Origin: Acanthopleura granulata
Lineage: Eukaryota; Mollusca; Polyplacophora; Chitonida; Chitonidae
Length of the DNA: 64,000 nt
Reading direction: 5' to 3'
Assembly: GCA_016165875.1 (NCBI GenBank)
Contig: JABBOT010000039.1
Coordinates: forward strand, 2,723,292 to 2,787,291
Shown here: positions 5,396 to 62,017 of the stretch, piece by piece
Layout of the letters: each line of letters begins with the position of its first letter
How positions within the stretch are numbered: position 1 is the first letter of the stretch
Notes under the pieces: model-generated
Seen by the model: only the letters and a program-made list of their open reading frames with translations
Databases searched by the model: none
Told to the model about the DNA's origin: nothing
Position numbers and translations under genes: made by a program

Positions 5396-5411
5396 CGCCT
5401 TCAAGAAGGCG
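5396..5411 (-). terminator. Histone-type 3' stem-loop (cassette A, copy 1)
   Basis: On the minus strand CGCCTTCTTGAAGGCG folds as a perfect 6-bp stem with a 4-nt loop, the size of the histone mRNA stem-loop. It lies about 35 nt after the stop codon of the gene at 5447-5668. A purine-rich CCGGAAAGAAAG box follows at the position expected for a U7-binding downstream element. Loop bases differ from the usual TTTC. Confidence 0.65.
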
Positions 5412-5886: not shown

Positions 5887-5902
5887 GGTCCTGAAAAGGA
5901 CC
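5887..5902 (-). terminator. Histone-type 3' stem-loop (cassette B, copy 1)
   Basis: Minus strand GGTCCTTTTCAGGACC: a 6-bp stem with the canonical TTTC loop of replication-dependent histone mRNAs, preceded by AACAAC and followed by CAACC and CCCGAAGGAAAC. It terminates the broken gene at 5903-6349. Confidence 0.8.
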
Positions 5903-8731: not shown

Positions 8732-8767
8732 AGTACCTGCCAGCCTAACTGCCTGCCTAACTGCTTG

Positions 8768-8799
<32 letters not shown>

Positions 8800-8840: not shown

Positions 8841-8854
8841 TTTCCCTCATTGTG

Positions 8855-10920: not shown

Positions 10921-10936
10921 AACGTACCTCTCCATT

Positions 10937-12262: not shown

Positions 12263-12302
12263 AAACAGTTTTCATTCTACCTGTGCTCAGTCTCCCCTCA
12301 CG

Positions 12303-18073: not shown

Positions 18074-18097
18074 TGTGGAGGGAGGCCTATGGGGGAT

Positions 18098-20056: not shown

Positions 20057-20143
20057 AATATACAACAGGACGACACCTGCAATTATAGAGGGCCCTTTAT
20101 TCTCATGCACACTTCGCACGTAGTGATCCACACACTTAGGCAT
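20057..20143 (-). pseudogene. Membrane-protein gene stub cut by LINE A
   Basis: The minus-strand ATG at 20143 opens the same MPKC frame as 39023-39757, but after about 29 codons the sequence runs into the LINE 5' end (ggggctaatatacaacagga junction). Confidence 0.8.
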
Positions 20144-20183
20144 CGTGAGAGGGGACTGAGCACAAGTAGAATGAAAACTGTTT

Positions 20184-21352: not shown

Positions 21353-21368
21353 ATTGGCCAGGTTCGTT

Positions 21369-22377: not shown

Positions 22378-23778
22378 TCACCAAATTTCAAAATTCGACA
22401 AATTGTCCATGTAATGACGCCCAGTCCCTTGATACGTATTCACTGTTGATATCGATGTATTGCCCAAATGAAAACCTTTACAATTGTCGAAATTAAGCCC
22501 TCTAATATTTCCTCCATGGTCCGAGTTAAATTGAAATCGTTTGCGGAAAGATGTAGGTGGTCTCTAAGTAAGTAAAAAAATAACTATACATGTCTATAAT
22601 TCAGTATAAGCTCACATGACTTTGCACCATAGTTTATATAGTATACCTGGAAAGCAGTAGTCTATAAAATTAATTAAACATTATATATAGCTCAGTGTAA
22701 AAAGAATGACTTCTCATATTTTTAATCAAAAAAAAGGAATACTTACTTACGCTTCTGCGTCACCTTCACACTTTCCTCCTGTCAAGCGCTGCAGGAACGT
22801 TTCGGAGCAATCTGGATGAAGCTTCTGCATGTCACACCTGTTCATATACCGGTGGATTTGATCATCGCTCCATTGATCCTCTTTAGCCGCATCTGGAAAA
22901 TCGTCGAGCACCTTAGGCTCATCCAAACGCAATGCCGCTTGCTCAACTACAATTTCACTCTCCATATCCATGTATTGTAATGCCTCGAGACACTGATGGC
23001 GATTTTGATTAGGATGCTGCACGCGGCAATCTTCACACTGTTCTTCTTTGACTTGATTGACTAGAGGGGTCTCATGCTGCATCATCATACGCCACATTAA
23101 ATTATCAAGTAAGCTGTTCTCCTCATCAGTGAGAGACATTGGTGGCTGTGGGCAGATAGGCGACGCATTGGCTGTATGGGACACTCCCTCATCTGTTTTT
23201 CCAAGTATCCCTCGAATACGCTGGCAGGCCTTCCTCAAGTGTTTCCTCATATTAGCTGTGAAAGTGATACCACCTTTCTTAGGATAATATTTCCCCTGCT
23301 TGCTGTATTGCATCCATCGTTTAATATTCAAATACCACCACCGCTCTTCAGTTTTTGAAATCTTATATGTTGACAAACTGAAGAAAACGTCACCATTCAA
23401 GCGAAACAGCTGTTCTGACGGTACGCTGATTTCAGTCCCACCTTCATTCGCTGGTATAGGCCCGATTACTCTTCTAGCGGTTTGTGATTGTAGGAGGCTT
23501 TCAAACTCGTCCCAGGCACTCACCGGGATGGCTATATTCCGTTCGTAAGGTTGGTTAACATGTTGAGCAAAGGTGATTTTATCTTCTCCAACCCGAATGC
23601 GATACCCATTAGGAATATCGATATCACAGGTTTTCGCCGAAATCTTCTTCCCACGCGGACCGAGTTTAATTCGCTTCTTAGGCGGGGGCTGTGCATCCAC
23701 TTCTTCTTCTTTGTCAGATAAAAAAGTATTCATTGCCCCAGTCGGTGTTGTTGATGGCTGCTGTTTACTTCTTGGCAT
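22378..23778 (-). CDS. PC4-like protein with RHIM-like tail, copy 2 (two exons)
   Basis: Exon 1 runs from the ATG at 23778 to 22751 and ends at GC|GTAAGTAAG. Exon 2 runs from 22561, after AGAG, to the stop at 22378. The lengths (1028 and 184 nt) keep frame and give about 403 residues. Domains match copy 3: a PKKRIKL-type basic patch, two PC4-like segments (about 45-95 and 125-185), a CxxC...H...H-C zinc-like motif near 265, and exon 2 with NCKGFHLGNTS. The exon 2 end is about ten codons shorter than in copy 3. That this gene stays open beside a shattered integrase is notable. Confidence 0.8.
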
Positions 23779-23804
23779 AATGAGGAGGAAAACAAAAGTA
23801 AGTC

Positions 23805-23850
23805 AAGCAGGCAGGCAGGCAGGCAGGTAGGCAGGGAGGCAGCCAAGCTA
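23805..23850. repeat. Short CAGG (CCTG) tract in the PC4-gene leader, copy 2
   Basis: About eleven imperfect aggc units just upstream of the gene start. It is the short allele of the repeat that reaches 1.7 kb in copy 1. Confidence 0.85.
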
Positions 23851-23929
23851 TGCTAGTTGACGGGTGTGAAGTCCCGAGGCAGACTGCTGGGTGAAGTGTG
23901 GGAATGAGCAGCTTTATATAGGACAATTT

Positions 23930-24130
23930 TTTTGGTATGACGCAAAAAAACTTGTGGAAATTCCTCGCTGTACCAGCTAAGTGCAATAGCACCGGGTAGG
24001 TGCAAATTTGACATAATGACAAAAAAAACTGTCACAAAATGGGGATTCCCCACAGACGGTGAATCCAGATAGATGGCGCTGCGATGCTTGTAACGGCTTT
24101 CCCTTCGGTCCGCGCTGCCTAACTGGCGCA
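23930..24130. promoter_or_regulatory. PC4-gene upstream module (copy 2)
   Basis: Contains the TATATAA core near 23915-23925 and the conserved block also found at 34980-35095 and, inverted, at 53278-53397 (aagtgcaatagcaccgggta; aaaatggggattcccca). Next comes the gatggcgctgcgatgcttgt block that precedes cassette genes. Confidence 0.65.
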
Positions 24131-24213
24131 CGTTCTAAAAATAGCAGAATCCACCCGATTCATATAAAAGCAACAGCATTTGAGCGGGGCTGAACCATTC
24201 ACTCAAGAATAAC

Positions 24214-24501
24214 ATGGATGACGCAGTGCTAGCGACAGCCATTGCAGAGTATGCTAAGGCATACGACCGCTATGAAGCGAGTGTCAACATCAACGCCAGA
24301 TTGCTAGCGATGGCTGCAGTAGAAATAGAGAATAATCGAGCCGAGGTGGACAGCTGGTGGGAAGTAATGAAAGCGGCGTGTGTGGCGCAGGGGAAGCCAT
24401 TTCCCCCGTGGACACCTCCACCCACACCAACACCAAACACTGTGCCGGGGGAGGAGGACAAGCAGAAAGGGAAGGAGGACGAGCAGAAGAGGGAACAGTA
24501 G
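24214..24501 (+). CDS. Small helical cassette protein B, copy 2, 95 aa
   Basis: ATG at 24214, about 50 nt after a TATA box (catataaaagc at about 24164). The N-terminal 70 residues form a predicted helical hairpin (AIAEYAKAYDRYEASV, then a LLAMAAVEIENNRAEVDSWW helix). The tail is Pro-rich, then Lys/Glu-rich. The stop lies 55 nt before a perfect histone-type stem-loop. It is transcribed outward, toward the lost TIR. Copy 1 has a broken version and copy 3 a truncated one, so this is the only intact copy. No database family is recognised; the name B is positional. Confidence 0.7.
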   Translation: MDDAVLATAIAEYAKAYDRYEASVNINARLLAMAAVEIENNRAEVDSWWEVMKAACVAQGKPFPPWTPPPTPTPNTVPGEEDKQKGKEDEQKREQ

Positions 24502-24555
24502 GGTGGAGTGGGAAATTAAAAACCAACCACTCTCCCCACTTCCCACATTTCCAAA

Positions 24556-24571
24556 GGTCCTTTTCAGGACC
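24556..24571 (+). terminator. Histone-type 3' stem-loop (cassette B, copy 2)
   Basis: GGTCCTTTTCAGGACC: a 6-bp perfect stem with TTTC loop, ACC(A) 3' flank, then CCCGAAAGGAAC at the position of a histone downstream element. It matches the metazoan histone mRNA pattern closely. Confidence 0.85.
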
Positions 24572-24659
24572 AACCATGTCTTCCCGAAAGGAACTTCCAA
24601 AATATCTAAGCATGATATATATATGTGAGTTATGTATGTATGGTTTTAATGTCTGTGAT

Positions 24660-24830
24660 TTGTCCGATAGATGGCGCTGCGACGCTTGTAACGGTTCTCT
24701 CTTCGGTCCGCGCTGGTTGGCTGACTAGCAAGGCTTCTAAAAATAACAGAATCCACACAAATGAAATAAAACGAGAGGTTAGCTGGGTGAAACAACGGTT
24801 CTTTTCAGGACCAACCAACCCTTCCCGAAG
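24660..24830 (+). pseudogene. Deleted cassette: promoter joined to stem-loop (copy 2)
   Basis: The promoter block (gcgctgcgacgcttgtaacg; acagaatccacacaaatgaaataaaa) runs directly into the cassette B-type 3' end (agctgggtgaaacaacgg) with no gene between. The TATA has decayed to AAATAAAA. An equivalent remnant is in copy 3 at 34529-34680, so the deletion predates their separation. Confidence 0.7.
24797..24812 (+). terminator. Histone-type stem-loop of the deleted cassette (copy 2)
   Basis: GGTTCTTTTCAGGACC: 6-bp stem with one T-G (U-G) pair and the canonical TTTC loop, then CCCGAAGGAAAC. Confidence 0.75.
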
Positions 24831-24905
24831 GAAACTTTCATTATCTAAGCATGATATCTGAGTTATGCATGTATCGTTTCTAAAAATTTGCTCTCTGTAA
24901 CCGCC

Positions 24906-24976
24906 GCGCTTTTTGGCGCAATACCGAAGTTTACCGAAGTTTACCGGACTTTACAAGCCCCCTGATTTGTATAAAA
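24906..24976 (+). promoter_or_regulatory. Promoter of cassette A, copy 2
   Basis: Palindrome GCGCTTTTTGGCGC at 24906-24919 (E2F-like), then tandem gaagtttaccg units, ACTTTACAAGCC and the TATA box TATAAAA at 24970-24976, 40 nt before the ATG. Confidence 0.7.
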
Positions 24977-25015
24977 GCCAGCCCCGCGCTAAACATTTCA
25001 TATCCAGCGGTTACA

Positions 25016-25396
25016 ATGGAAATGACTATCGTATTACGAGCGGGAGCGGAATACGGCGTGGCCTGTGTAAAGCACGAACGTGTGTGCTGGGCCTATCTCC
25101 GGGAGGGGGCGGCAATTTTCCCCCAACTACTGAGCGCTAGGAGGGCGAAGCAGGCGGCCTGGGAACGCTTCGTACAGGCCCTCCTAAGACTGGATGCGCA
25201 ACGGATGCCGCAGATCATAGTGTACCCCCAGCGAGGCAGTGGCAGGAGAGAGCCAGAGAGTAGGCAGGAGGGGGCGAGCAGGGAAGAGGGGGAGAGCACC
25301 CAGCGAGGCAGTGGCAGGAGAGAGCCAGAGAGTAGGCAGGAGGGGCGAGCAGGGAAGAGGGGGAGAGCACAACGGACCAGGATGAGGCAGAAGTAA
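25016..25396 (+). CDS. Small helical cassette protein A, copy 2, 126 aa
   Basis: ATG at 25016, shortly after a TATA box. About 75 N-terminal residues are Ala/Arg/Leu-rich and helical (AEYGVACVKHERVCW; ARRAKQAAWERFVQALLRL). The rest is a low-complexity tail built from a tandem repeat (GSGRREPESRQEG units). The homologue in copy 3 (33976-34323) has a related but different tail. It ends 40 nt before a stem-loop. No known domain is recognised. Confidence 0.7.
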   Translation: MEMTIVLRAGAEYGVACVKHERVCWAYLREGAAIFPQLLSARRAKQAAWERFVQALLRLDAQRMPQIIVYPQRGSGRREPESRQEGASREEGESTQRGSGRREPESRQEGRAGKRGRAQRTRMRQK

Positions 25397-25435
25397 ACGA
25401 CCCATACACAGCCTCTCCACCCCCAAATTCCCAAC

Positions 25436-25451
25436 GGTCCTTTTAAGGACC
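25436..25451 (+). terminator. Histone-type 3' stem-loop (cassette A, copy 2)
   Basis: GGTCCTTTTAAGGACC: 6-bp perfect stem, loop TTTA, CAACC flank, then CCCGAAAGGAAC. Confidence 0.8.
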
Positions 25452-25632
25452 AACCACGTCTTCCCGAAAGGAACTTTCAAAAAATCTAAGCATGACATAT
25501 ATAGGTGAGTTATGTATGTATGGTTTTAATCAACTAAAAGCTAATATTTCACAATGTATTGTATACTATATTTCTGTCAAAACAATCCATTGATAAGGCC
25601 TATCTCTCTATATGCAGGCATAATCCAATGGG

Positions 25633-28612: not shown

Positions 28613-29257
28613 TGTGGCTTCCCCCGTGGGGTTCCCGGGAGTGAAAAGAATAGGGACCCAGGTTCTCTAGGCAAGCTTGTCGTACAAGGCGACTAACCTA
28701 GGGCTCTCCCGTGTGGTTCCGGTGAATAGAATAGTTCCACAGCCTCCCAGGGCTTGTCGTACAAGGCGACTAAAAGGGGCAACCTGTTTGCCGTGGGTTG
28801 CGACCCGTGATGGGGGGAGGACGGGATCCTGGTGGCTGAGGGCGGGTTCATCTTGCGAGATCCCCAACACTCCACTTCGGCCCTTACTTCTCCAAAGACG
28901 GGCGGCCGGATGGCCCGCTCCGATCAATCGACTGGTCACGCCAGTCCAGACGTCCGTATATCAACCTTCATATATCTTCATTTGGTATAGAGTCATTGCT
29001 TTCCGTGTTGGAAGTTTTTTAGTAAGATGTTAGGATGTTTGGGCGGTGGCTTTAGGGTCAATCGAGTAGGCCGTTTCTAATTTATTAGATTCGGCCTGCT
29101 CGAGTATGAGCGAAAAATCCATCTTATCGAGGATGGCGTGGAACTCTCGTCTCTCCTTCTGCTGGTCACTCGCAGGAGGGGTTTCGTCGTACATGTATCG
29201 ACACTCCGAGGCGGGTGAGAGACACGGCGCTATGAATCATCCAACCGTCTGGCTATG

Positions 29258-30604
29258 TCTACCTCTAATTCCGCTATTCCAAATGTTTCTATGTCACAGC
29301 CTTCCCCAGTTGTGGGGAAATAAAGGAAAAACGAGATACCACTGGATATGGAATCGGGAAGTTCTCACTTCCCATCCTTTCTAGTGATATCTAGTAAAAA
29401 TGAGAATCAGGCAAAGATGAAAATCAATCATTTCGTATTGAATAAAACTTTGCAGAGCTACGCAGGCACTTTGAAACAAGTGAAAAAGTTAAACTCTGGC
29501 AAAATTCTTGTAGAATGTTTTCGAAAACAACAGTACATTAACTTACTCAGAATTGAAAATATTGAGGAGCAAGCTGTTTCTGTTTCCCGACATAAACCCT
29601 TAAACTGCTCTCACGGCATCATTCGTGACAGAGACCAAGACCTCTACGACATGACAGAGCAAGAAATAACAGAGCAACTGAAGGACCAGGGCGTACTCAA
29701 CGTCAAACGTTTTACCATCAAGAGGGATGGGAATCTTATTAAAACAAATACGTATCTCGTAACGTTTAATAACCCGTCTCTCCCAACGTCAATGTCCCTT
29801 GGGCCGTACAGTGTGCGGGTAGAATTGTTCATACCTAACCCGACCAGGTGTTTCTCCTTCCAGAGGTTTGGCCATGGCAGGGGTCAACGCCGAAATCAAC
29901 TGGTCTGTTTCAGATGTGCGGAAGCTGGTCACGAGGGCTTCGACTGCACAAACACCATAAAATGCTGGAATTGCAGCGGAGCCCACATGGCCTCTTCCAA
30001 GGATTGCCCTGTCTTCAAAAAAGAAAAAGAAATCATAACCCTTAAATGCAAAAATAACATATTGTATCAAGAAGCCAAACGTCTTGTCTCTGTCACCAAT
30101 GGCCTGACTAAATCTACATATGCCAATGTTGTCAAGAAACCATCCGTTTCGGTAGGAGTTCAAACATCATTCACTTGGCCCATTGGTATAGAGAAGCCAC
30201 AGAAACTGGTCGTAAATCCCTTGGAAAACACGGCCAGTTCTTCATCACAAACCGATATCAATCTTACTGAAAAAGCCGCTACTTCACCTGATTCTCCATC
30301 TCACCACAAACCTTGTGCAAATAAATCCAAATCCTCTAAACCCGTTGAATCTTCACAAAATGCAGCGCGTGATAAACATCAGAAGAAAGGTAAACCTAGT
30401 GGCCCCACAGAGCGTCCCTCCAAGGCTACTAGGGACCCTATCCGAACTTTCAATAAGTTTGGGTCGTTGCAGGACGTCGGTCCTTCAACGTTCTATGCAG
30501 ACATGATGGATACATCGTCTGCATCGGGGAGATCTACTAGTAGGTCTCCCAAAAAGGGTCGTGCACGGTTCAGACTCAAATCCCCCATACGCCTCCCTCC
30601 ATAA
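29258..30604 (+). pseudogene. LINE ORF1, copy B
   Basis: Homologous to ORF1 of copy A. The native ATG at 29258 is followed after 22 codons by a TAA from a frameshift (gttgtggggaaataaagg). From about 29348 the frame is open for some 418 codons, with three zinc-knuckle-like motifs (the first changed to CFSFQRF...) and the Ser/Lys-rich tail. The stop overlaps the ORF2 start as TAATG. Confidence 0.85.
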
Positions 30605-33228
30605 TGACTTTCTTAGACAAAATTATACAGTGGAATTGTCGAGGTCTTAAAAGAAATTTCATTGAAATAACACAGTTAGTTCAATCTTTAAATCCAATTG
30701 CCCTTTGTCTTCAGGAAACTCAGCTGAAGACATCTGACAAAGATAAAATATCATTACTCTAATGAGGAAGAGCGAGCTCGTGGCGGCTCCTCTATTTTAG
30801 TGAATAATAATATAATTCACAGCCCTGTTGCTCTCGACACAGAGCTTCAGGCTGTAGCCGTCCGTGTTTCCTTATCGGAAACAATCACTTTATGTTCAGT
30901 TTATGTTCCTCCTCATTCTTCTTTGTCATTTTGCCAGTTGCATAATTTAAAAGACCAACTGCCAACTCCCTTCATAATTATGGGAGATTTTAATGCGCAT
31001 AACCACCTATGGGGTAGTAATAATATAAAAGATAAGGGCAAAATAGTAGAAGATTTCTTATGTAAAGATGAACTGTGTTATTTTAATAATGGTTCTAATA
31101 CCTACTTACATCCAGGTAATGGTTCATATTCTGCTATCGATCTCACTATCACCGATCCATCACTTCTCCCGGATTTTCCTTGGAAGATGCATGACGATCT
31201 TTGTGGTAGTGATCATTTTCCTCTTGTCCTAGAGCATCTCACTTGTAATTCTTTAGAACGTGTAGATAGGTGGAAGTTCGATAAAGCAGATTGGATGGCA
31301 TTCGAGATGTTCTGTGAGGCTGACATCACTGCAGAGAATCTCAATGCTGCAGATGATCCTTTGCTTACATTTAATGAACTCCTATTAACAGCAGACGATA
31401 GAACCATCCCTAAGACCTCGACAAATCCCAAATGCAAAAGTAAACCCTGGTTTGATAATGACTGTCGTAAGGCTATAAAAGACCGCAAAAAGGCCGAGCG
31501 CAGATTTAATCATCGTCCTGATGATAATAATTTAAACCAGGTTCGTATACTTGCAGCCAAGGCTCGTCGATTAATTAAGTCCAAGAGACGATCTTGTTGA
31601 CGGAACTTTGTTTCAGGCATTACGTCCAAAACACCCATGCATAAGGTCTGGAACATGGTTCAGAAACTTAAGGGCAAGAAGAGTAAAGCCAAAGTTCAGC
31701 ACTTAAAGGATGGTGATACCTTATTAACTTCACCGCATGATATAGCCAATAAAATAGCTGAAACAATATCCCACAAATCTTCATCTGGAAATTATTCTCC
31801 TGAATTCCAGCATATTAAAAACCAAAAAGAGAAAATTAAATTGCCCTTCTCTTCTAAGAATTTAGAAGATTATAATCGTCTATTTTCAACTGAAAAGCTT
31901 AAAACTTCTCTAAAAAAGGCACACGATACTGCGTGCGGCCCGGATAATATATATTACAAGCTTCTGAACCACTTATCATCTGAGCCATTGGAGACACCCT
32001 TGGACTTACTTAATGATATTTGGAAGGCCGGTAAATTTCCCCCATCATGGAGAGAGGCGTATGTTATCCATAAACCGGGTAAGGATCATAGTGATCCGAG
32101 AAATTACCGTCCCATAGCTCTTACCAGTTGCGTCTGTAAGACTATGGAACGGATGATAAATGATAGACTTGTTTGGTTTCTTGAAGCCAACATGCTTTTA
32201 TCAAACATTCAGTGTGGTTTTCGTCAAGGTCGATCCACTATGGATCACCTTGTTCGATTTGAAACCTTCATTCGTGACGGTTTTATTAATAATGAAGATG
32301 TGGTATCGATATTTTTCGACTTGGAAAAGGCCTATGACACCACATGGAAATATGGTATTTTAAAAGACCTTGCTGATATGGGTTTAAAAGGTCGCTTACT
32401 TTGATTTATATCTCAGTTTTTATCTGATCGTCAGTTTAAGGTACGAGTGGGGTCCACTCTTTCGAACTCTTACGAACAAGAGGTGGGTGTGCCCCAAGGC
32501 AGTATCCTCTCACCAACACTGTTCAGCATAAAAATTAACAGCTTGGCTCAAACATTAACATCCGGTATTGAGGGTTTTTTATATGTAGATGATTTCCTGA
32601 TATGCTACCGCGCTAAAAATATGAATAACATCGAGCGGCAACTGCAGCTTTGTCTCAATAAGATCGAGAAATGGGCAGTTGCCAATGGTTTTAGATTCTC
32701 TGCGTCTAAAACCGTGAGTATGCATTTCTGTAATAAACGCAAATTTCAGCACAGAGTGGGGTGCTGAGCGATCAGTGTTACTTAATTTGTATCGTTCTCT
32801 GGTGAGGTCTAAATTGGACTATGGATCTGTCATTTATGGTTTTGCTAGGAAATCATGTCTTAAAATGTTGGATCCGGTCCATCACCAAGGTCTGAGGCTC
32901 AGCCTTGGTGCCTATAGGACTTCACCAGTAGAGAGTTTATACGTAGAAGCTAATGAGCCTTCTTTATATCACAGGCGTATAAAATTCAGCCTTCAATACG
33001 TCGCTAAGCTTAAAGCTCACCCAACAAACCCTGCCTACGACTGTGTTTTTAATCCATCATACGCAGATAAATATAAGAAATGTCCCAACAAAATTTCTTC
33101 CTTTGGTCTTCGTGTTCGGGACCATATTGTGGAAGCTAAAATGAAGCTGCAGGACATAGCTCCGGTTTCCTTTCCGGAGTCTCCTCCCTGGCTTCTCCCA
33201 CAAGCTAAATTAATATTTGATCTACGTC
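30604..33228 (+). pseudogene. LINE ORF2, copy B, broken and truncated
   Basis: Starts at the ATG at 30604 in a TAATG overlap with ORF1. Endonuclease and RT motifs are present (GDFNAHN, SDHFPL, GFRQGRS, YVDD), but a deletion near 30745, TGA codons near 31600 and 32402, and a deletion near 32755 break the frame. Confidence 0.85.
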
Positions 33229-33487
33229 AGTAGTACATTATGTGACTTACAGGTCTCATTCGTATCTTTTAACCTGGGAGGTATGGGGGTAAGGAGGTAT
33301 GGTGATGACGTCATATGACGTCATATCTTGTGACCCAGTTGCTGCATCACATGTGGGAGTTATTGCGTCATCGGTTGTTACGTAATATGTTTTGATAAGG
33401 TAGAGTTCGGTTGTTACGTAATATGTTTGCGTCATCAGTTGTTACGTAATATGTTTTGATAAGGTAGAGTGTGTTTTTTTTTCCTAT
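33229..33487 (+). repeat. Left terminal inverted repeat, copy 3
   Basis: Begins AGTAGTACATTATGTG and ends in a T-tract plus cctat. It contains tandem TGACGTCA palindromes (atgacgtcatatgacgtcat) and three GTTACGTAAT boxes within a repeated gataaggtagagt unit. It matches 53397-53656 in reverse complement with few differences. Confidence 0.93.
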
Positions 33488-33810: not shown

Positions 33811-33919
33811 TGTACATTGTGAAATATTAGCTTTTAGTTGATTAAAACCGTACATACATAACTCACCTATATATATCATGCTTAGATATTTTGAAAGTTC
33901 CTTTTCGGAAGACATGGTT

Positions 33920-33935
33920 GGTCCTGAAAAGGACC
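33920..33935 (-). terminator. Histone-type 3' stem-loop (cassette A, copy 3)
   Basis: Minus strand GGTCCTTTTCAGGACC with CCAAA upstream and CAACC then TCCGAAAAGGAAC downstream. It lies about 40 nt after the gene's stop. Confidence 0.85.
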
Positions 33936-33975
33936 TTTGGAAAATTTGGGGGGAGTGGAGAGGCTGGGTGTTTAT

Positions 33976-34323
33976 CTACTCTCCTCGGTGCTCTCCCCCC
34001 TCTTCTCCGCTCGACCCCTCCGCCCTACTCTCTCGCTGGGTGCTCTCTCCCGCCTGGCTACTCTCTCCCTCCGCCCTACTTGCTGGGGCTCCTCCGCCAC
34101 TCCCTTGCTGCGGGTACACTATTATTTGTGGCATTCGCTGCCTGTCCAGCCTTAGGACCGCTTGCACCAAACGCTCCCAGGCCGCCTGCTTTGCCCGCCT
34201 GGCACCCAGTAGACGTGGGAAAACCGCCGCCCCCTCCCGCAGGTACACCCAGCACGCACGCTCGTGCTTTATACAAGCGACCCCGTATTCAGCTCCTAGG
34301 CGTAGTACATTTGTCATCTCCAT
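33976..34323 (-). CDS. Small helical cassette protein A, copy 3, 115 aa
   Basis: ATG at 34323, some 50 nt downstream of TATAAAA (34374-34380). The N-terminal 75 residues closely match the copy 2 protein (AEYGVAC.KHER.CW.YLREGAA, then ARRAKQAAWERLVQA.LRL). The tail is a different Gly/Ser/Glu-rich repeat. Base composition of the tail is much more GC-rich than its surroundings. Function unknown; the shared 5' and 3' signals define it as part of the cassette family. Confidence 0.7.
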   Translation of the reverse strand: MEMTNVLRLGAEYGVACIKHERACWVYLREGAAVFPRLLGARRAKQAAWERLVQAVLRLDRQRMPQIIVYPQQGSGGGAPASRAEGESSQAGESTQRESRAEGSSGEEGGEHRGE

Positions 34324-34373
34324 TGTAACCGCTGGATATGAAATGTTTAGCGCGGGGGCTGGCTTTTATACAA

Positions 34374-34434
34374 ATCAGGGGGCTTGTAAAGTCCGGTAAA
34401 CTTCGGTAAACTTCGGTATTGCGCCAAAAAGCGC
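34374..34434 (-). promoter_or_regulatory. Promoter of cassette A, copy 3
   Basis: TATAAAA at 34374-34380, then GGCTTGTAAAGT and tandem cttcggtaaa units, and the palindrome GCGCCAAAAAGCGC at 34421-34434. Confidence 0.7.
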
Positions 34435-34528
34435 AGGGGTTACAGAGAGCAAATTTTTAGAAACGATACATGCATAACTCAGATATCATGCTTAGATAAT
34501 GAAAGTTTCCTTCGGGAAAGGGTTGGTT

Positions 34529-34680
34529 GGTCCTGAAAAGAACCGTTGTTTCACCCAGCTAACCTCTCGTTTTATTTCATTTGTGTGGATTCTGTTATTT
34601 TTAGAAGCCTCGCTAGTCAGCCAACCAGCGCGGACCGAAGAGAGAACCGTTACAAGCGTCGCAGCGCCATTTATCGGACA
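34529..34680 (-). pseudogene. Deleted cassette: promoter joined to stem-loop (copy 3)
   Basis: Includes a stem-loop at 34529-34544 (minus strand GGTTCTTTTCAGGACC) and, without a gene between, the promoter block (gattctgttatttttagaag; cgttacaagcgtcgcagcgc). Same structure as 24660-24830. Confidence 0.7.
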
Positions 34681-34744
34681 AATCACAGACATTAAAACCA
34701 TACATACATAAATCACATATATATATATCATGCTTAGATATTTT

Positions 34745-34813
34745 GCTCGCTTCATAGTGGTCGTATGCCTTAGTATACTCTGCAATGGCTGTCGCTAGCA
34801 CTGCGTCATCCAT
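34745..34813 (-). pseudogene. Cassette B gene, copy 3, truncated after 23 codons
   Basis: The ATG at 34813 and first 23 codons (MDDAVLATAIAEY...) match copy 2. Then, within the codons for EAS, the sequence jumps to the 3' flank beyond the stem-loop (aaaatatctaagcatgatat). About 280 bp including the stem-loop are gone. A TATA box is retained near 34853. The frame runs on into flank DNA. Confidence 0.8.
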
Positions 34814-34974
34814 GTTATTCTTGAGTGAATGGTTCAGTCCCGCTCAAATGCTTTTATATGAATCGGGTGGATTCTGCTATTTTTAGAACGTGCGCCAGTT
34901 AGGCAGCGCGGACCGCAGGGAAAACCGTTACAAGCATCGCAGCGCCATCTATCGGGACTCACCGTCTGTGGGGA

Positions 34975-37436: not shown

Positions 37437-37796
37437 ATGAAATCGCGGGTTTTAGGATGGAGAGAACTTGTTGATTCAGTAAACAATCTCCAAGCATATA
37501 AGGGGGTAGTGGAATCTATGTTTGAAGATCAACTGGTGAATGAAGGACGCTGCACTATTCTCCGACTATTCACCAAAGACGTTTGTGACCGGCTAGAGAA
37601 TTCTAATCCGATTCGTAAATACTATCACCAGGAAGTTATACCGAAACTCATGGACTTACAGCGCAAGTCACCCACTACAACCCCTATAAAACCTGAATCA
37701 ATATCTCTCACGCCCCGGGTGCTTTACACATCTCTAGCTGTCTGTATCACTTGCGCCGCTACTTGTTGGTTTTTAGTGAAAATGGGTATAGAATAA
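37437..37796 (+). CDS. Tail-anchored small protein, 119 aa
   Basis: The ATG at 37437 is chosen because copy 2 starts at the same codon; the frame is open 63 nt upstream without conservation. The helical body (residues 1-75) is followed by a Thr/Pro linker and one hydrophobic stretch at 96-113 with a VKMGIE end, the layout of a C-terminally anchored membrane protein. No signal peptide. It lies between the PC4-like gene and integrase, 16 nt from the latter, in all three copies. No BH motifs or other family signature recognised. Confidence 0.75.
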   Translation: MKSRVLGWRELVDSVNNLQAYKGVVESMFEDQLVNEGRCTILRLFTKDVCDRLENSNPIRKYYHQEVIPKLMDLQRKSPTTTPIKPESISLTPRVLYTSLAVCITCAATCWFLVKMGIE

Positions 37797-45075: not shown

Positions 45076-48000
45076 CTAAATATCCAGGTAAGTCGTGCTT
45101 ACCCCATCAGGCAAAATCTTACGTTTAGCATAAAAATACGTGAAAGCGTCCTTATGCTGTGTATAGGAACACATTTGATGTCCACGTACACGCATGCCAC
45201 GATTGACTCCCGCTGCACTTCGTCCCTCCTGGAGCACCGAGAGATACAAATCCTTTTGAGCACTGTGACGGTTTACTCCTTTGCATGAAAATTTATCACC
45301 ATCTCCACTGTCCCCAGCGTAGCAGTAATATGTTTTGGAACATAAAGCGATAATACCATCTCCACTCCATTCTACTTTAAACAGACCAGGCGTACGTTTG
45401 TCATGTTGATAATAATCTCGACGAGGTAACCAGCGGTCACGCTCAGCTTCGTAAGCTTCTCGCAGCTCAGGTTTAACCAAGGATTCCCAATTAGGCTCCG
45501 ACCATGCAATGTATGCTGAATCTGTATCTGTTTCCACGAGTTGATAATCACTGGAATGAAAATATTTTGCCAGGAAATCGTAATAGAATTCCAGCATGCG
45601 GAGTTTGGCATACTGATATACCATACACCCTATCTGTAAGGGTAAATTATAAGAGATCCGTTTCTTAGAGTACGTGACCTCATACGTAGCATCATCAATT
45701 TCCTCCACGTTAATACATGCATCTGAATTAACTAATTTCCGAGCTTTCTCTAGCGTACACACTTTCACATTCACATGGCGATCTTGATTAGTAATTGTCT
45801 TTCCATATCCCGAATTTCCTAATAGCTTCATCGTTTCACCTATTAACACCTTGCTGGGATCTACATCCCCTTGACGTCGGGCTTGAGTCACGTGATCGGC
45901 AAAGGTGCGAAAGCAGGTTTCAGGTGTGTATTGCACAGCTTGATACACACGAGTTACAACCAGTCCATGAGCCAAATACCATCTTAGCAGAGGGGTGCCC
46001 AAGAGAATTTTCGTTCCACACATACTTCCTATTAATGTACGGCGGGGCTGAGTCATAATATTATTGGCCTTGGCATATTCTTTCATAGTCGGACCGATAT
46101 CTTCTACGGTGACATTCGCATTTTTAAATATCGGGGGGCATTCAGCAAAAGTTGATAATAATTGTTGAGGGACATGAATGTCACATTCCACAAACCCATA
46201 CAGTCGCTGATCCATAACTGATTTTAATAATTGATCTTCAGTAAGATGAGGTGGGGGAGGAGTGTAGTAATGTCGGAGAAATGATTGAAGGGTGGGGTCA
46301 GTCTGCTTTTGCTGAAGAAAGAAACATTCCCAGGTTTCCACAACCTGGAAGTTGAGATGCTCGAAATATGCTCGGTGCTCATTCGTCTCGTTCTGAAGTT
46401 CTTCCGGTGAAAGACCACGCCTAGTGTTATAGCGGAGCTCACCTGTTGAAGTATAGTTGAGATGACACCCATGGAAATGCCAGTAACATCCGTGGAACTG
46501 CAATGATACAAGCATACGTATATAAGTATAAAGCGTGTACATTGTTTTATATATGTATATATATAAGTATATATATATATATGTATATGTATATACATAT
46601 ATATATAAGTATATATATATGTATATACATGCATATATTCGACATGTTATAAATTATAGCGCTACATTTACCCAATCTTTTTTTTTTTCATACATACATA
46701 ATTATTTTATATATATTACATATACAAGAGATAATACATTACCTGGAAAATAGTGCGTCGACCGTTCACCACAGCAAAGCCGTCAACAGGGAGCCGACGA
46801 TCACCAACTCTCCGTTCCACATCGTTCAGCCGATGCCGAATAGGCACACCCAGCTGAGCCGCTTGCCAGTCTAGCCACTGTTCAGCCAGTCGAGGTTTTT
46901 TGGACTCTTTCGGATAAAAATTGATAGTGTCTTGTCTCTCTTCTTCTATGGGTAGCCAGCGGATATAATGTCCAGCCGGCATAGGTGATGCTAAGCAAGC
47001 TAGGTATAACGCATTAGCGTCAAAACCGACAATTCCCTGGCATAATTTTCCTCCCCTAATACGAGTCACCCCCTTCTCATGATAGCGATGAAATACAATA
47101 CTTGGTCCCCCGACAATATTCGATCTCAGACATTGATAAAGATCTTTATCCCCTTCTCCTATTAAGGAAAAGTAAGTTGGGAGATTTTGAAACAAGTAAC
47201 GTAAAGTGACCCCAGGAATACTAATACAGTCTTTAAATAGATCTACACGCATGGTTTGATAAAACGCTGACATCTTTCCCAAAGCTTCAAGAAATGGAAT
47301 GACGTCGAGATTATTGTACCAAATCAGAAAATCACGCAGGGTCTTCATTCCCTGTGATTGCCACACATTCTCCAAAGCCTGGTAATCTTCTTCAGAGCAA
47401 AAAGTCCCTTTTAACTTGTTATGGAAAGCTTCACGCGGCGGGAGATTTGTCTCATCTAAGCGTGCTAAACTATCCACGTATTCGTAACAAAACTGTCCTT
47501 TGGTCACCTGACATTCATAAGCTTTGACCCATTTATCATAACTATAATTCGGGGCTAAATAATTTCGAACGTCTAAAAATCTCAGCTGACCTGTAGACAC
47601 ACTCATGTGATTGTTATTCCGCTTGATAAGGTATTTTAACCCATCGGTTTTCACTAAATACGGATACAGCTGCCGCTTTATTAAATTAAAATCATATTTC
47701 CCAGAATTAAAACCCAAAACAGGGAGTTCGGTTAGGTATGTTAAAAATCGCTCCTTGAGTTTTTCTGTGTAAGATGTCTTTTTGGTTTCGCAGGTAAAGT
47801 CACATAGTGCGGCTATACCTATACACTCATCCAAGCTGTCTAACACGTGGTGGTAATGTTGACATAACAGCTTAAAACTAGCTTCACTGATCTCAGTGAG
47901 ATATGCCATCATAGTTTCAATCAAAGCGTGCGGATCACCCGTTGATACAAAACACATCGGTTTGTCATATCCAGGAACGTTACTGTTAACAGACACGCTC

Positions 48001-49430
48001 ATGGGAATATGGAGGGCAGTCCATTCTGTGTTTTCACCACTGTTAGCTGCAGAAGGGTCTAATTTTTGGAGATAGGCCTCAAAATCAAAACAAGCTCTAT
48101 ATGGGAAATACCTGTCCTCTTCAGCGACATCAATAATTCCTTCGTCAGCTAACTCCTCGAAAACAGTGGCTTTGTTTTTAAACACACCGCCTGGATACAC
48201 TCGTTTGATAACCCCATCACAAGTCCGTGCATGCCGTTTTAATTTCCAGGCCTTGGGAAATGATTTATGACAAACCCTGCACAGATAAGAACGAGCGTAT
48301 AAATTCATATCTTTCACCACGCTAAAATGCTTCTCGTGTAAATTAAGAGTCAAAGTAGTAGCGTATCGCTTGGCGGACCTATAAAGAATCTCAGCGCACA
48401 CATCTGTATCAACTACTAATAGTTCATACACAAATATGTTTACGTTAAATAAATCCTCCAAAAAAGACAGTTCGCTGAGCGGGACACCTCGGAAATACCT
48501 GGCTTCCATACCTTTAGCTTTCAAGTAAATTTTTAAATAACCCTTAGCTTTAACAGTGCAGTATTTGGGGTTAGCGTTGTCTAGGTGAAAGGCTAAGCAA
48601 CGGAAGAAACATAAATGATCATCGTAAGCACCATGTCCACCACTCACCATGCTGTGCAAGCCTTTATTATTCTGCACGTGGGCAGGTAAATCTACCGGTG
48701 CACCGATGGGTGTGGTATGTGGTTTATGCACATAAAACGCAACATTAGTCACACTGTCTACCATCCATTTGGTATTTGGCCGCTGTTGTCGGGCTGATTC
48801 GATCGGATCGATAGCTGACAAATCAGCCGTAAGTGTTTGTATATCCCCATAGGTGTGAATATATCGACATTCTGAAAGTATTCTTGTATTTGTACTCGGA
48901 TAGAAATAACGCAATTGGTCCGTATCTCGGTGACGTAAAATGAAACCGTAAGCTAGGTTGATACGGAAAGCTGAAGGCTGGTCAAGAAACACCTGTTCCA
49001 GGTGTGTAGCTAAAGGATAGAGTCCCTTGATTCGGAAATTATACACATCCTGCAAAGGTCGATGGCGATGAAATTGCTGGCGGATAGCGCCCCAGTGACG
49101 TTGATATATGTCACGTAATGCTGGGTCTGTAGGTAACTCATCATATGAAGGTGTGATGGGGTCCAAGGGAAATGAATTAGGGCCGTTATTGAGGTTAACC
49201 TGACCCTTTACATTACCGACCGAGGCAGTATGAAGTTCACCCTGTTCATCCACATCGCTTTCTGGCCCCAGCGGGCTAAACACAGCCTCAGGTGAGGGCG
49301 CTTGATTGACAGGTGAGAGTAATGAGGAGCCCTTGGAGCGTTCGGATCTACCAGCAGACTGGCCCCGGCGCTTTGATGTTGAAGCGGTTACACGACTTCC
49401 AGTCTGTGAAATGGGCTGCACCTGTATAAC
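45076..49430 (-). CDS. polB: Protein-primed family B DNA polymerase, spliced, about 1370 aa
   Basis: Replicates the linear element. Exon a (46743-49430) ends at CAG|GTAATG; exon b runs from 46497 to the stop at 45076, after ttgtatcattgcag. The junction is in phase 0 and restores the FHGCYWH block. N-terminal residues 1-100 are low complexity. Residues 260-385 hold DDHLCFFRCLAFH and HEKHFSVVKDM (OTU-like Cys/His pair), then a C2H2-like CRVCHKSF...HARTC. 3'-5' exonuclease: FDFEAY (D450, E452), GFNSGKYDFN, YNNLDV. Polymerase: FDANALYLACL (motif A), KLLGNSGYG (motif B), TDTDSAYI (motif C). No ATG opens exon a; an upstream exon joined at ggttatacag is likely. Start therefore unresolved. Confidence 0.92.
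46498..46742 (-). other. Intron of polB (245 nt)
   Basis: Minus-strand donor GTAATG at 46742 and acceptor CATTGCAG ending at 46498. The interior is a TA/TATG microsatellite with a poly-T run. Removing it restores the polymerase frame exactly, so it is a spliceosomal intron and not a disruption. Confidence 0.88.
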
Positions 49431-49557: not shown

Positions 49558-49746
49558 ATGCCTCTCAAGAAGAAACGAAATCGACCCAGGAAATACAATA
49601 CATACAAACGCCGGAGTCGGAGGAAGAAGAAGAAAACTCGAGGAAATAATTTACAGCTAGCTATGCGGCGAAAATTCCGACATCCGAGACTTAGAAATAA
49701 CTATGAATCGCCTGGAGATTTCTACCGCCGTGTAACCCATATCTAG
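49558..49746 (+). CDS. Arg/Lys-rich core-type protein, 62 aa
   Basis: The ATG at 49558 (MPLKKKRNRP) is preferred over the GTG/ATG codons just upstream because it starts the basic run. More than 40% of residues are Lys or Arg (KRRSRRKKKKTRG), ending YRRVTHI. It resembles protamine-like or adenovirus VII/mu-type DNA-condensing peptides in composition only. It could package the genome in the virion. Confidence 0.6.
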   Translation: MPLKKKRNRPRKYNTYKRRSRRKKKKTRGNNLQLAMRRKFRHPRLRNNYESPGDFYRRVTHI

Positions 49747-50192
49747 TGATTTTTGACTACCCAACGAAAACAAAACGGACGAACCAACCAGCCCAACCCG
49801 ACCTGACCATAGACCTTTTAAATAAAAGGTCGCCCTATTCTGTCGAAAGAGTCTTTCTAATAGAAAAGCACATCATTATTTTCACAGTTACTTATTTGTC
49901 TTTTATATGTGTCAAATAATAAATATATGTTTTGTGTTGTGTACATCGTAATTATACTCTATTATATATATATAAACAAATCGTATTATGTCTGTATTAT
50001 TAAGTTTGATATGTGTGCTGGAATATATGTGCGTGTGTGTATTTAAAATACGCAGTTCATATCGCTATGTTAGTAAAACACAGGGATTGAAAATCCACAG
50101 CGGCTGGTACGGTATAGTCCCTATCATCCAATCAGATGCATGGGATTTTGCTCTCTATTTGGTCCGCAGCGCTGTCAAACTTTACAAGCCGA
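49747..50192. promoter_or_regulatory. 3' flank and upstream region of right cassette 1
   Basis: Contains aataaa near 49918, and from about 50080 a module with CCAATCAGATGCAT (CCAAT box and octamer-like), CGGTATAG and GACCAATCC just before the TATA box. The module acaCAGGGATTGAAAATcca recurs at 50960-51040. Confidence 0.55.
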
Positions 50193-50200
50193 CCAATCCA

Positions 50201-50208
50201 TATAAAAG
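50201..50208 (+). promoter_or_regulatory. TATA box of right cassette 1
   Basis: TATAAAAG preceded by ACTTTACAAGCC and CCAAT. The ACTTTACAAGCC-TATAAAAG pair also occurs before cassette A in copy 2, so cassettes at opposite ends share promoter parts. Confidence 0.7.
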
Positions 50209-50566: not shown

Positions 50567-50582
50567 AGCCCTTGTAAGGGCT
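50567..50582 (+). terminator. Histone-type stem-loop, right cassette 1 (variant loop)
   Basis: AGCCCTTGTAAGGGCT: perfect 6-bp stem, loop TGTA, AACC flank, then CCCCGAAAGG. The 3' flank (gcacgatatatttatatata, gggttatgtatgt) matches the flanks of the left cassettes. Confidence 0.7.
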
Positions 50583-50689: not shown

Positions 50690-51480
50690 TAAAACAAAAC
50701 CAAAATTAGCCCCTCACATTCAACATCTTTATGATAGGGCTGTATACGACTGTGTATATACCCTTTCTAATTATTAAATTTATATGTCAAAACTAAATGC
50801 TGATATTTTCACACTGCATTTGTTTTTTTTTAATATTTCTGTACATACAAGTAAGCTATTGATATCTCTATATGCGCGCATAGTCCTGTGTGCTGTATGA
50901 ACCTACGAGAACGAAACATCGTTATTAATATACTATGAGGCAAACCGCTATGCTATAGTGAAACACAAGGATTGAAAATTTTCTAGCACTGCTCAGACAT
51001 CACCCACTATCGACCAATCAGAACAGCAGAATTTGCCCTGCCTTCAGCTCGTACCGATAGAGCGTACATCTACTGTTGTGCTTCTCCAGGGGTGTAAAAC
51101 ACCAATTATCTCTTTACCGCTTTCATATTTTATACACACGCTGACGAATTATGTATATTAAGGACTTTTATTTTTTAATTATTAAGATTATATCCCAATA
51201 AAAGTTGATATTTAAACCTATATTCTTATATTTCCATCCAAAAAAGAGACACGGTAAAAACACAATGCTTGTAAATGCAGAAAGCCCACGTGACTGCTAT
51301 AAACCAATGCGAAATGGTGAAATTGCTCTCTATGACCGTCGCGCTTTTTGGGCATGCCGCTGCGGGAGTTTACGAGCACCAGTATATTTATTTCATAAAA
51401 ACAACTCCCGGAGTACACCTGTCCGTGCATTTTTTTTTTTTTCTCTCCTCACCAATCACTGCTTTCGTTTAGATCCGCGC
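50690..51480. promoter_or_regulatory. Spacer and promoter region of right cassette 2
   Basis: Contains an inverted, diverged spacer repeat (50690-50830), a duplicated cassette-1 promoter without its gene (50945-51040, with GACCAATCAG), and CCAAT boxes near 51303 and 51451. A GCGCTTTTTGGGC box (51342-51354) resembles the left-end palindrome. Possible frames here lack support. Confidence 0.5.
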
Positions 51481-51580
51481 TGCTGCTATATAGTCTGCGA
51501 GCATTGGTGACAGACTCACAGTCACTCTACTGCATTTCTGCCGGAGCTGATTTCACGACAAAAACCCAGAGAGGAAGATT

Positions 51581-52054: not shown

Positions 52055-52070
52055 GGCTCTTTTCAGAGCC
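52055..52070 (+). terminator. Consensus histone mRNA 3' stem-loop, right cassette 2
   Basis: GGCTCTTTTCAGAGCC is identical to the metazoan replication-dependent histone stem-loop, preceded by CCAAA and followed by ACCCA and, 10 nt on, GTCGAAAGGAC, a U7-type downstream element. It lies 118 nt after the stop codon. Confidence 0.9.
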
Positions 52071-52660: not shown

Positions 52661-52911
52661 TGCTTGTTTTGTTTGGTTTTTTTTTTTCATGTACTCTCTG
52701 TTATGTATTGTGGTTTCTTTGTTATTTATATGTCTGTCTGTGATTTGTCGTGACATCACACACCGTGATGTCACATAATCAAACAAAGATTAGCCCCTAA
52801 CATTCACTCCCCCTTAACTTATCATATATATATATAAATATAAATACGACACACTATGCTCTGAAAATGTATACTCACAACAGTATAATATATATATATA
52901 TGTGTACTCAC

Positions 52912-53118
52912 CAGTCTTTCTCCACTCATATCACTTTTCTCTCCATGTCCAGTTCGATGATAATGCCGTTTCAGGTTTGACATACGGGTAAACCGCTGAG
53001 CACAATCCTTACAACTATACGTACAGCTCCCCGATCCATGAACTTCCTGCTTGTGACGATTTAGCGTAAAACGTGCCTTAAAAACACGCGAACACAAATC
53101 ACAGGTAAATCCCATCAT
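52912..53118 (-). CDS. C2H2 zinc-finger protein, first exon
   Basis: ATG at 53118 (or 53115), downstream of TATAAAAA (53197-53204). Two classical fingers, CDLCSRVFKARFTLNRHKQEVH and CKDCAQRFTRMSNLKRHYHRTGH (residues 6-28 and 35-58), span nearly the whole exon. After GERL the frame meets CTG|GTGAGTACAC, a strong donor, and the following TA-rich translation is implausible, so a downstream exon probably exists. The promoter contains the inverted copy of the PC4-gene module, suggesting common control. Likely a DNA-binding regulator. Confidence 0.75.
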
Positions 53119-53277: not shown

Positions 53278-53397
53278 GGTATGACGCAAAAAAAACTTGT
53301 GGAAATTCCTCGTTGTACCACCTAAGTGCAATAGCACCGGGTAGGTGCAAATTTGACATAATGACAAAAACAACTGTCACAAAATGGGGATTCCCCA
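53278..53397 (-). promoter_or_regulatory. Promoter module, right copy of internal inverted repeat
   Basis: Near-identical reverse complement of 34978-35093, including ggggattcccca and the aagtgcaatagcaccgggta block. Here it drives the zinc-finger gene and abuts the right TIR. Confidence 0.75.
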
Positions 53398-53656
53398 TAG
53401 GAAAAAAAAAACACACTCTACCTTATCAAAACATATTACGTAACAACTGATGACGCAAACATATTACGTAACAACCGAACTCTACCTTATCAAAACATAT
53501 TACGTAACAACCGATGACGCAATAACTCCCACATGTGATGCAGCAACTGGGTCACAAGATATGACGTCATATGACGTCATCACCATACCTCCATACCTCC
53601 ATACCTCCCAGGTTAAAAGATACAAATGAGACCTGTAAGTCACATAGTGTACTACT
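53397..53656 (-). repeat. Right terminal inverted repeat, copy 3
   Basis: Mirror of 33229-33487. Ends ...CATAGTGTACTACT. The ccatacctcc unit is present three times here but arranged differently at the left (tatgggggtaaggaggtat), a small length difference. Confidence 0.93.
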
Positions 53657-53705
53657 CCTGGGTCACTACTCTGCGCTAGCACGCTAATCAACTGAGCCAC
53701 GAGCC
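53657..53705 (+). repeat. SINE 3' fragment at the Polinton right border
   Basis: cctgggtcactactctgcgc then gctaatcaactgagccacg matches the end of the common SINE-like unit. It is unrelated to the LINE found at the left border. Confidence 0.6.
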
Positions 53706-61015: not shown

Positions 61016-61339
61016 ATCACTATGTCAATGATGTGCATCACTCGTTTTGCTTCTCCACATAAATTTGTACGAATTGGGGTCTTTGGCAATCTCGGTTTTA
61101 ATCTCTGTACATTTGTTTGGACATTGCTTCATCGATCCATATTTTGTCGACCTTTAATTGCATTATCGAGCAAATACACTTTATTTCTCAATAGCTTTTC
61201 ATTACGTCTTGTCAGATATTATCGACGTTTTGCAGAGAAACGCCAAACTTGACAATTTCAAAGTAAGTGGGGGCCTGCACATGTAACAGATGAACATCGA
61301 TTGTCATCGATTTAAATTATGCAGGAAAACTAATCTTAC

Positions 61340-62017
61340 CTTGTTTTTTTCCACAGCTGTCTTTACGCCGAGGCTATTGTGTTTAGGATGTTCTTCCAGA
61401 CAATCCGGACAGACCACAGCCTTACACGTCACACAGTAAATGCATAACGGCTGACAGTGTTTATCACACTCACGCTTGGGATCGGACCGAATAGCTGGGT
61501 CTGGCATTTGGGAAGATTCTCCTTCTCTGTGGGTTAAGTGTCCACCTACAGACATCATGATGTGTTGCTTGTATGGCCCTCTCATCGGGTGCAATGATAG
61601 ACACTCTTGACAAAAAAACACGTCACATGTGGAACAAAACTTCGTCGCCGCTGCCTTGTCTTCACACATTGAGCACATAGGCGTGACCGTCTTGGATTGG
61701 TCATGTGACAAGACTTTTGCCTTCGAATCTGCCGTTTCTGCGTCGACAGACCACACCCTCACATCCTCAAATGTTACGACGGTAGGTGATCGACACATGG
61801 GACACTTGATCTTCCGTCGATGGGGCGCACTGATGTCCTCGCTGGATTCGGAAAGGCCAACAAAGCATCTTAAACATTCCCGGCAAAAATTGTGTTTGCA
61901 AGGTAGAAAGATCGGATCCCGGAAAATGTCCTTACAGATGGAACAATAAAACTCTTTCGTGGATCCGGCGTTTGAAACAAAAAGTTCTGGAAAACCTTTG
62001 AAATCCATGGTCAACAT
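61340..62017 (-). CDS. TRIM gene, first coding exon: RING and two B-boxes
   Basis: ATG at 62017 (or 62008); donor AACAAG|GTAAGA after 61340; 226 codons, phase 0. RING at residues 24-75 (CSICKDIF ... CKHNFCRECL ... CPMC), a B-box 1-type C/H cluster at about 113-150 (CSMCEDKAAATKFCSTCDVFFCQECL), and B-box 2 at about 183-220 (CDKHCQPLCIYCVTCKAVVCPDC...H). RING domains confer ubiquitin ligase activity. With the two coiled-coil exons and B30.2 exon it makes a class IV TRIM-type protein. Exact family member not assigned. Confidence 0.88.

Follow-up and report, generated by a model that had tools for sequence, protein, structure and literature searches.

The window analysed here – the whole 64,000-nucleotide stretch of contig JABBOT010000039.1 from Acanthopleura granulata – contains one complete Polinton and parts of two further copies (Table 1). 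The complete element has long inverted ends and the gene set of a Polinton/Maverick (integrase, protein-primed DNA polymerase B, packaging ATPase and capsid), with matches to an rve-type integrase bearing a chromodomain, to family B DNA polymerase and to the packaging ATPase; its protease has no Pfam match and was assigned by eye. The DNA polymerase of this copy is divided between two ORFs (45076-48764, minus strand) with a TA-rich simple repeat in between. The nearest named relatives of the capsid protein come from a chiton (62% over 90% of the length) and from periwinkles (49-50%), and searches of IMG/VR with the capsid protein and with a capsid alignment confirmed no relatives there. Polinton/Maverick integration produces a 6-bp target site duplication; none is found at the complete element, whose flanks read tacgtc (33223-33228) and cctggg (53657-53662), and a later rearrangement could have caused its loss. 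At least 110 capsid matches are present in the 606.5 Mb genome; nine of them, the window's own included, span the full length, have no stop codons and reach at least 98% identity.

Short accessory genes occupy both ends of the complete element and point outward. They are named LA, LB and LC when they belong to the left end and RA and RB when they belong to the right, a prime denoting the left-end genes of the complete element. Other features of the window include a 119-aa ORF (37437-37796, plus strand), present in both partial copies as well, with a weak match to the Bcl-2 family (E 0.078, below the cut-off) and a hydrophobic C-terminal stretch resembling a tail anchor, and a 98-aa ORF with C2H2 zinc fingers (Pfam) between RB and the right inverted end (52822-53118, minus strand). 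Beside the Polintons stands a pair of LINE-type retrotransposons (15415-20054, minus strand; 28621-33072, plus strand), inverted and about 95% identical, with reverse transcriptase and endonuclease, and at 61304-62017 on the minus strand there is an ORF with RING and B-box zinc fingers, a TRIM-like host gene.

Table 1. Polinton copies and accessory units in the window, in order of position; the host model and RF00032 are covariance models described in the text.
Feature	Position	Strand	Remarks
Second partial Polinton copy, decayed	~5000-12400		Carries LC and a broken LA-like unit
Variant stem-loop CGCCTTCTTGAAGGCG after LC, decayed copy	5396..5411	-	Host model 31.4 bits
ORF LC, 73 aa	5447..5668	-	Promoter with GCGCTTTTTGGCGCAA and TATAAAAG upstream, 5724-5795
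Stem-loop GGTCCTTTTCAGGACC after broken LA-like ORF (start 6349)	5887..5902	-	Host model 51.1 bits; RF00032 match
Inverted partial Polinton copy	~20057-25558		Carries the LA and LB units
LA promoter: GGTCCGCGCT, TAAAAATAGCAGAATCC, TATAAAAG	24107..24170	+	
Accessory ORF LA, 95 aa	24214..24501	+	In inverted partial copy
Stem-loop GGTCCTTTTCAGGACC, 3′ end of LA	24556..24571	+	Host model 45.6 bits; RF00032 match
Stem-loop GGTTCTTTTCAGGACC, orphan unit	24797..24812	+	Host model 48.6 bits; promoter relic 24705-24754, coding part lost
LB promoter: GCGCTTTTTGGCGCAA, TTTACAAGCC, TATAAAAG	24904..24977	+	
Accessory ORF LB, 126 aa	25016..25396	+	
Stem-loop GGTCCTTTTAAGGACC, 3′ end of LB	25436..25451	+	Host model 44.7 bits; RF00032 match
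Complete Polinton, 20.4 kb	33229-53656	.	Inverted ends 33229-33487 and 53397-53656, 98% identical
Stem-loop GGTCCTTTTCAGGACC, 3′ end of LB′	33920..33935	-	RF00032 32.2 bits; host model 53.3 bits
Accessory ORF LB′, 115 aa	33976..34323	-	
LB′ promoter: GCGCTTTTTGGCGCAA, TTTACAAGCC, TATAAAAG	34363..34434	-	
Stem-loop GGTTCTTTTCAGGACC, orphan unit	34529..34544	-	Host model 45.2 bits; RF00032 match
Truncated ORF LA′, 66 aa	34613..34813	-	Start like LA, remainder lost
LA′ promoter: GGTCCGCGCT, TAAAAATAGCAGAATCC, TATAAAAG	34851..34914	-	
RA promoter, near host H2B: GGTCCGC, TTTACAAGCC, TATAAAAG	50161..50208	+	Alignment starts ~15 nt further upstream
Accessory ORF RA, 82 aa	50258..50506	+	ATG after TATA box; 172-aa frame from 49988 crosses promoter
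Variant stem-loop AGCCCTTGTAAGGGCT	50567..50582	+	First pair A-U, loop UGUA; host model 45.2 bits
RB promoter, near host H1: TGCTTTCGTTTAGATCCGCGCTGCTGCTATATAG	51460..51493	+	
Accessory ORF RB, 118 aa	51581..51937	+	Predicted long helical hairpin
Stem-loop GGCTCTTTTCAGAGCC and downstream box GTCGAAAGGACTTT, 3′ of RB	52055..52070	+	RF00032 38.7 bits; host model 35.6 bits

The original prediction described nine 16-nt hairpins in this window, each with a 6-bp stem and a 4-nt loop, as histone-type mRNA 3′ ends on Polinton accessory genes. All nine were found, those at 5396, 5887, 33920 and 34529 on the minus strand, and all have that geometry, with standard pairs at 54 of 54 stem positions. The TTTC loop is present in six, as had been claimed, the remaining loops being TTTA, TGTA and CTTG, and the purine box expected downstream follows every hairpin at a spacing of 12-15 nt, as GAAAG, GAAGG or, at 33920, GAAAAGG. 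The further statement that each hairpin comes just after a small ORF or a remnant of one holds for intact ORFs at six sites; 24797 and 34529 are preceded by a promoter relic and no intact ORF, and the ORF before 5887 has an in-frame stop. Where the ORF is intact, the stop codon lies 117 nt from the stem-loop at 52055 (RB) and 35-60 nt from it in the other five cases.

Histone stem-loops follow the consensus GGYYYUHHUNARRRCC, with a 6-bp stem and a 4-nt loop. A strict pattern, GGYYYTHHTHARRRCC, fits seven of the nine hairpins, and the two exceptions, at 50567 and 5396, keep all their pairs; in 30 Markov-1 simulations of random sequence, the pattern occurred on average 0.03 times and at most once. 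The Rfam model RF00032, which was built from neither the window sites nor the host histone genes used below, passes its gathering score at 52055 alone (38.7 bits against 34; E 8e-8), matches 33920, 24556, 25436, 5887, 24797 and 34529 with E values from 2e-5 to 0.12, and has no match at 50567 and 5396 and none elsewhere in the window up to E 3. Stem pairs 1, 3, 4 and 5 are represented by two or more pair types among the nine hairpins and pairs 2 and 6 are invariant; the covariation score was reached by 2 of 500 shuffles, in an automatic alignment with one sequence off by one base. As the hairpins are partly copies of one another – 24556, 25436 and 33920 form one group of near-copies and 24797, 34529 and 5887 a second, with diverged classes remaining – their count alone overstates the case, and the two orphan units and the broken ORF show that some of the units are in decay.

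The host's own histone genes offer a standard of comparison. A covariance model, referred to here as the host model, was built from nine of them only: five H1 and three H3 genes, all over the Pfam cut-offs, and one H4 gene, recognised by sequence, its core-histone match being below the cut-off. Host H2A and H2B genes, which were recognised by sequence at places of PF00125 matches, lie outside this model. Applied to the window, the host model ranks the nine sites at the top, with 31-53 bits and E values of at most 5e-5, and the next match has E=1.9; the 126 kb surrounding 30 Polinton capsid genes yield no match to it at E≤1. Conversely, a Polinton model made from the nine window sites recovers all three H1/H3 ends of the host locus L062 at 48-51 bits, and across nine capsid loci it has no match. 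Host histone 3′ ends read CAAC-GGCCCTTTTCAGGGCC-A(A/C)CC and continue into a GARAG..CTTT..TCTRAGCA-type box, which varies somewhat, and their stem-loops lie 30-50 nt after the stop codon. The stem-loop, its flanks and this type of box are common to the Polinton sites and to host H1, H2A, H2B, H3 and H4. At the level of sequence, it is as good as shown that the stem-loops are histone-type 3′ ends on Polinton accessory genes.

The usual histone purine box is shorter than the element downstream of the host histone genes (L033-L062, L071 and L072), in which a dyad, GAAAG..CTTTC, is followed by TCTRAGCA. A candidate tenth end, at 49777-49870, was left uncounted: the Polinton model scores it weakly, at 17.2 bits (window-wide E 0.35), and the host model does not match it. 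The surrounding region (49558-49870, plus strand) comprises a 62-aa, very basic ORF, then the hairpin GACCTTTTAAATAAAAGGTC with AATAAA in its middle, then GTCGAAAGAGTCTTTC; perhaps this is a histone-type end converted to a poly(A) signal, or perhaps it is due to chance.

Likeness to host histone genes extends to the other end of the units, a feature absent from the original prediction: one promoter resembles that of H2B (RA), one that of H1 (RB), and the rest resemble H2A or a mosaic of H2A and H2B. The RA promoter aligns to one host H2B promoter over 73 positions with a score of 29 (shuffle maximum 20), and the RB promoter to host H1 with a score of 28 (shuffle maximum 24). The LA promoter and host H2A have TCTAAAAATAGCAGAATCC....TATAAAAG in common; CCGCGCTTTTTGGCGCAA is found in the LB and LC promoters, and almost unchanged in that of LB′, as well as in host H2A (reverse strand); and the LB promoter also shares TTTACAAGCC..TATAAAA with host H2B, two promoters of which hold GGTCCGCGCT, TTTACAAGCCGG and TATAAAAGG. 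The host H3 promoter examined is without these motifs. When aligned to host histone promoters, seven of the eight unit promoters beat at least 198 of 200 shuffles, some of the units being copies and not independent; the score of the eighth, upstream of the broken LA-like ORF, was reached by 69 of 200. Of 13 control regions upstream of core genes, 11 fall short of the mark of 198 shuffles and two score high (343-aa gene, 0/200; basic ORF, 2/200), through gapped or AT-rich alignments. Motifs derived from these alignments are present at 16 places in the window, all of them in unit promoters or promoter relics; as they were picked after the alignments had been viewed, the test with 200 shuffles is fairer than this count.

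An E2F site had been considered in TTTGGCGC, which occurs only in three homologous promoters; the motif falls within a stretch common to the host H2A promoter, so E2F itself is not claimed. The core of the HiNF-P element is GGTCCG. One study describes the binding of HiNF-P to an element of the mammalian H4 promoter (PMC5706932). Judged by their likeness to host promoters, putative histone-type promoters on Polinton accessory genes are well supported.

Two of the accessory families, LA and LB, are clearly under purifying selection. Over 72 codons, LB and LB′ are separated by a dS of 1.41 and a dN of 0.088; for LB and the copy in locus L036 the values are 2.30 and 0.149, for LB′ and the L036 copy dS is saturated and dN is 0.265, and for LA and locus L038 they are 1.77 and 0.294, so that in both families dN/dS is about 0.06-0.17 with dS above 1. 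With dN so far below dS, LA and LB are real genes. RB and its counterpart in L041 are too alike for an estimate of selection. A neighbouring gene of 343 aa, compared between the same two element copies as LB and LB′, has a dS of 0.089 and a dN of 0.069; since dS for LB is above 1 (24598-25558 against 33813-34745) while that of the 343-aa gene is 0.09, the units seem to have been exchanged between element lineages, perhaps as cassettes.

Pfam searches at E≤1 returned no match for LA, LB, LB′, LA′, RB or LC and no histone match in any accessory ORF, the RA frame has a weak DUF match (E 0.13), and no relatives of RB were found in the protein database. RB is predicted to fold into a long helical hairpin (single-sequence prediction; of five models, the best has a mean pLDDT of 80.3 and the others 43.6-71.1), and LB′ is modelled as one long helix, unreliably so at a pTM of 0.32. 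LA is clearly related to its counterpart in the decayed element; for other pairs of accessory proteins common ancestry is unconvincing, with the score reached by 5 of 500 shuffles for LA-RB, 14 of 500 for LA-LC, 15 of 500 for RA-RB and more for the rest.

Across the 606 Mb genome, the pattern GGYYCTTTTCAGRRCCAMC occurs 243 times and its backward control not once. Among the 100 of these matches that were listed, 78 are outside the main histone cluster, and 25 of these 78 lie within 15 kb of a capsid match (57 of the at least 110 capsid places having been compared); 23 of the 25 point outward, that is, opposite to the capsid gene on its left and along it on its right. Among the remaining 53 are histone genes, Polintons that are partial or diverged, and unassigned places. 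L045 represents a diverged Polinton lineage, its relative of the 343-aa gene being only 46% identical; GGTCCGCGCT and TATAAAA are retained there, an LB-like ORF is weakly matched (E 0.008) and the 3′ end scores 75.7 bits. At L049 there is an AGAATCC..TATAAAA promoter, a 3′ end of 62.2 bits and an ORF that is RB-like by eye only. In six end regions of other copies, at positions estimated from the capsid gene, the strict stem-loop is absent from five, and model matches were obtained in two (L063 and L064) and not in the other four. A repeat family of about 1 kb, seen in L039, L040 and L048 (around position 1501) as pieces 68-81% identical, ends in a histone-type stem-loop and matches neither H1, H3 or H4 nor the Polinton proteins compared. 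In IMG/VR, the stem-loop and GAAAG pattern was met on a single contig, of a tailed phage; as the match lies inside a coding region and has no RF00032 match, it was put down to chance.

Of the factors that process histone mRNAs, SLBP is encoded by the host: its RNA-binding domain (PF15247) is found at C1:6020119-6020610, in two pieces above the cut-off. A search of the host genome for U7 RNA with RF00066 gave no match, and the search control likewise matched nowhere, so this negative carries no weight. A pattern composed of known U7 features had 7 matches, compared with 14 for its backward version; the best two candidates have no 3′ hairpin and were dropped.

The match to host ends, the small Polinton ORFs upstream and the encoded SLBP support the histone-type reading of the original prediction. 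That the accessory genes at both ends of the Polinton are expressed as histone-type genes has, in our estimate, a probability of roughly 0.9, and S-phase, poly(A)-free expression would be the most likely mechanism. Each intact unit carries a TATA promoter like those of host histone genes, a short ORF and a 3′ end of the replication-dependent histone type (stem-loop and box). Going by the similarity of the promoters, transcription factors of histone genes would activate the units at the onset of S phase; if the ends behave as their host counterparts, SLBP would bind the stem-loop, U7 snRNP would pair with the downstream box and the transcript would be cleaved shortly 3′ of the stem-loop, without polyadenylation. 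The element would in this way couple its accessory proteins to DNA replication, when copying itself is possible. Against such expression stand the U7 RNA that was searched for and not found, the two hairpins of nine that are off consensus, the orphan units and the broken ORF, the two high-scoring core-gene regions and the one unit promoter that scores low, the end regions of other copies in which neither stem-loop nor model match was found, and an ATTAAA between the LA stop codon, 13 nt upstream of it, and the stem-loop. A more far-reaching proposal, which we consider likely but hold with less confidence, is that the element took over the complete host histone programme: H1/H2A/H2B-type promoters and 3′ ends would have been captured, perhaps repeatedly, and swapped as cassettes around fast-changing ORFs. 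The proteins would then be made in S phase from poly(A)-free mRNAs, with the histone locus body as the probable site, and such genes would be invisible to poly(A) RNA-seq and to annotation.

The ends could instead be dead relics of captured histone genes, with the accessory genes using poly(A) signals or being dead themselves. The orphan units and the broken ORF would fit, as would the recent copying of several units from each other, and candidate poly(A) signals follow the stop codons of LA (ATTAAA at 13 nt, AATAAA at 263 nt), LB (AATAAA at 340 nt) and RA (ATTAAA at 266 nt). Yet neither AATAAA nor ATTAAA occurs within 400 nt after LB′, RB or LC; pairing has stayed intact despite changes in four of the six stem pairs, and the host model still awards 31-53 bits; LB has retained its 3′ end at a dS of 1.41 and a dN of 0.088; and the same layout persists in a diverged Polinton lineage, all of which makes the relic explanation improbable. 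Less probable again is a role as a DNA-level end element, in RNA packaging or in recruitment to the histone locus body, with 3′ processing secondary or absent. The outward-pointing units near the element ends would suit such a role, but the distances from the stop codon (35-60 nt; RB 117) are near those of host histone genes (30-50 nt), the host's downstream processing box is present, and an SLBP-type loop with its flanks is unneeded for a function at the DNA level. Chance hairpins amplified through repeat copies would account for the several sites that are copies of others; the diverged classes, the 0.03 sites expected and the genome-wide 243 against 0 argue otherwise, and the recovery of all nine sites by a model made only from host genes refutes this explanation, to which we give a negligible probability. 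Histone-type expression of the accessory genes remains the preferred reading. If it is true, these units would be a natural test of what suffices for S-phase, poly(A)-free expression, they would point to a way in which Polintons synchronise their activity with host replication, and Polinton accessory genes may escape transcriptomics based on poly(A).

To our knowledge, histone-type ends have hardly been described outside histone genes, and no literature on such ends or promoters in Polintons was apparent by title or abstract among the matches listed, in a coverage with subscription journals mostly outside it. For bivalve histone genes, a stem-loop and a purine-rich element are described in one report (PMC6210712). 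Compared with the histone genes of their host, the Polinton units are alike in the type of 16-nt stem-loop, with CAAC or CAAA before it and an AC(A/C)CA-like sequence after it, in the type of downstream box, in the TATA boxes (host H2A, H2B and H4) and in promoter elements; they differ in lying within a mobile element, in having ORFs without a histone match and in their stems, which, against GGCCCT in the host, include GGTCCT, GGTTCT, GGCTCT, AGCCCT and CGCCTT. With Polintons/Mavericks and adintoviruses, the element shares the integrase with chromodomain, polymerase B, packaging ATPase, capsid and long inverted ends, and it differs from them by the putative histone-type expression units on its accessory genes; a term search found no histone-type ends in two papers on this group (PMC11071296, PMC11071308). 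The viral 'Histoid' genes described in the former (PMC11071296) also link animal viruses with histones, but there the link consists of histone-like proteins, whereas here it consists of control signals.
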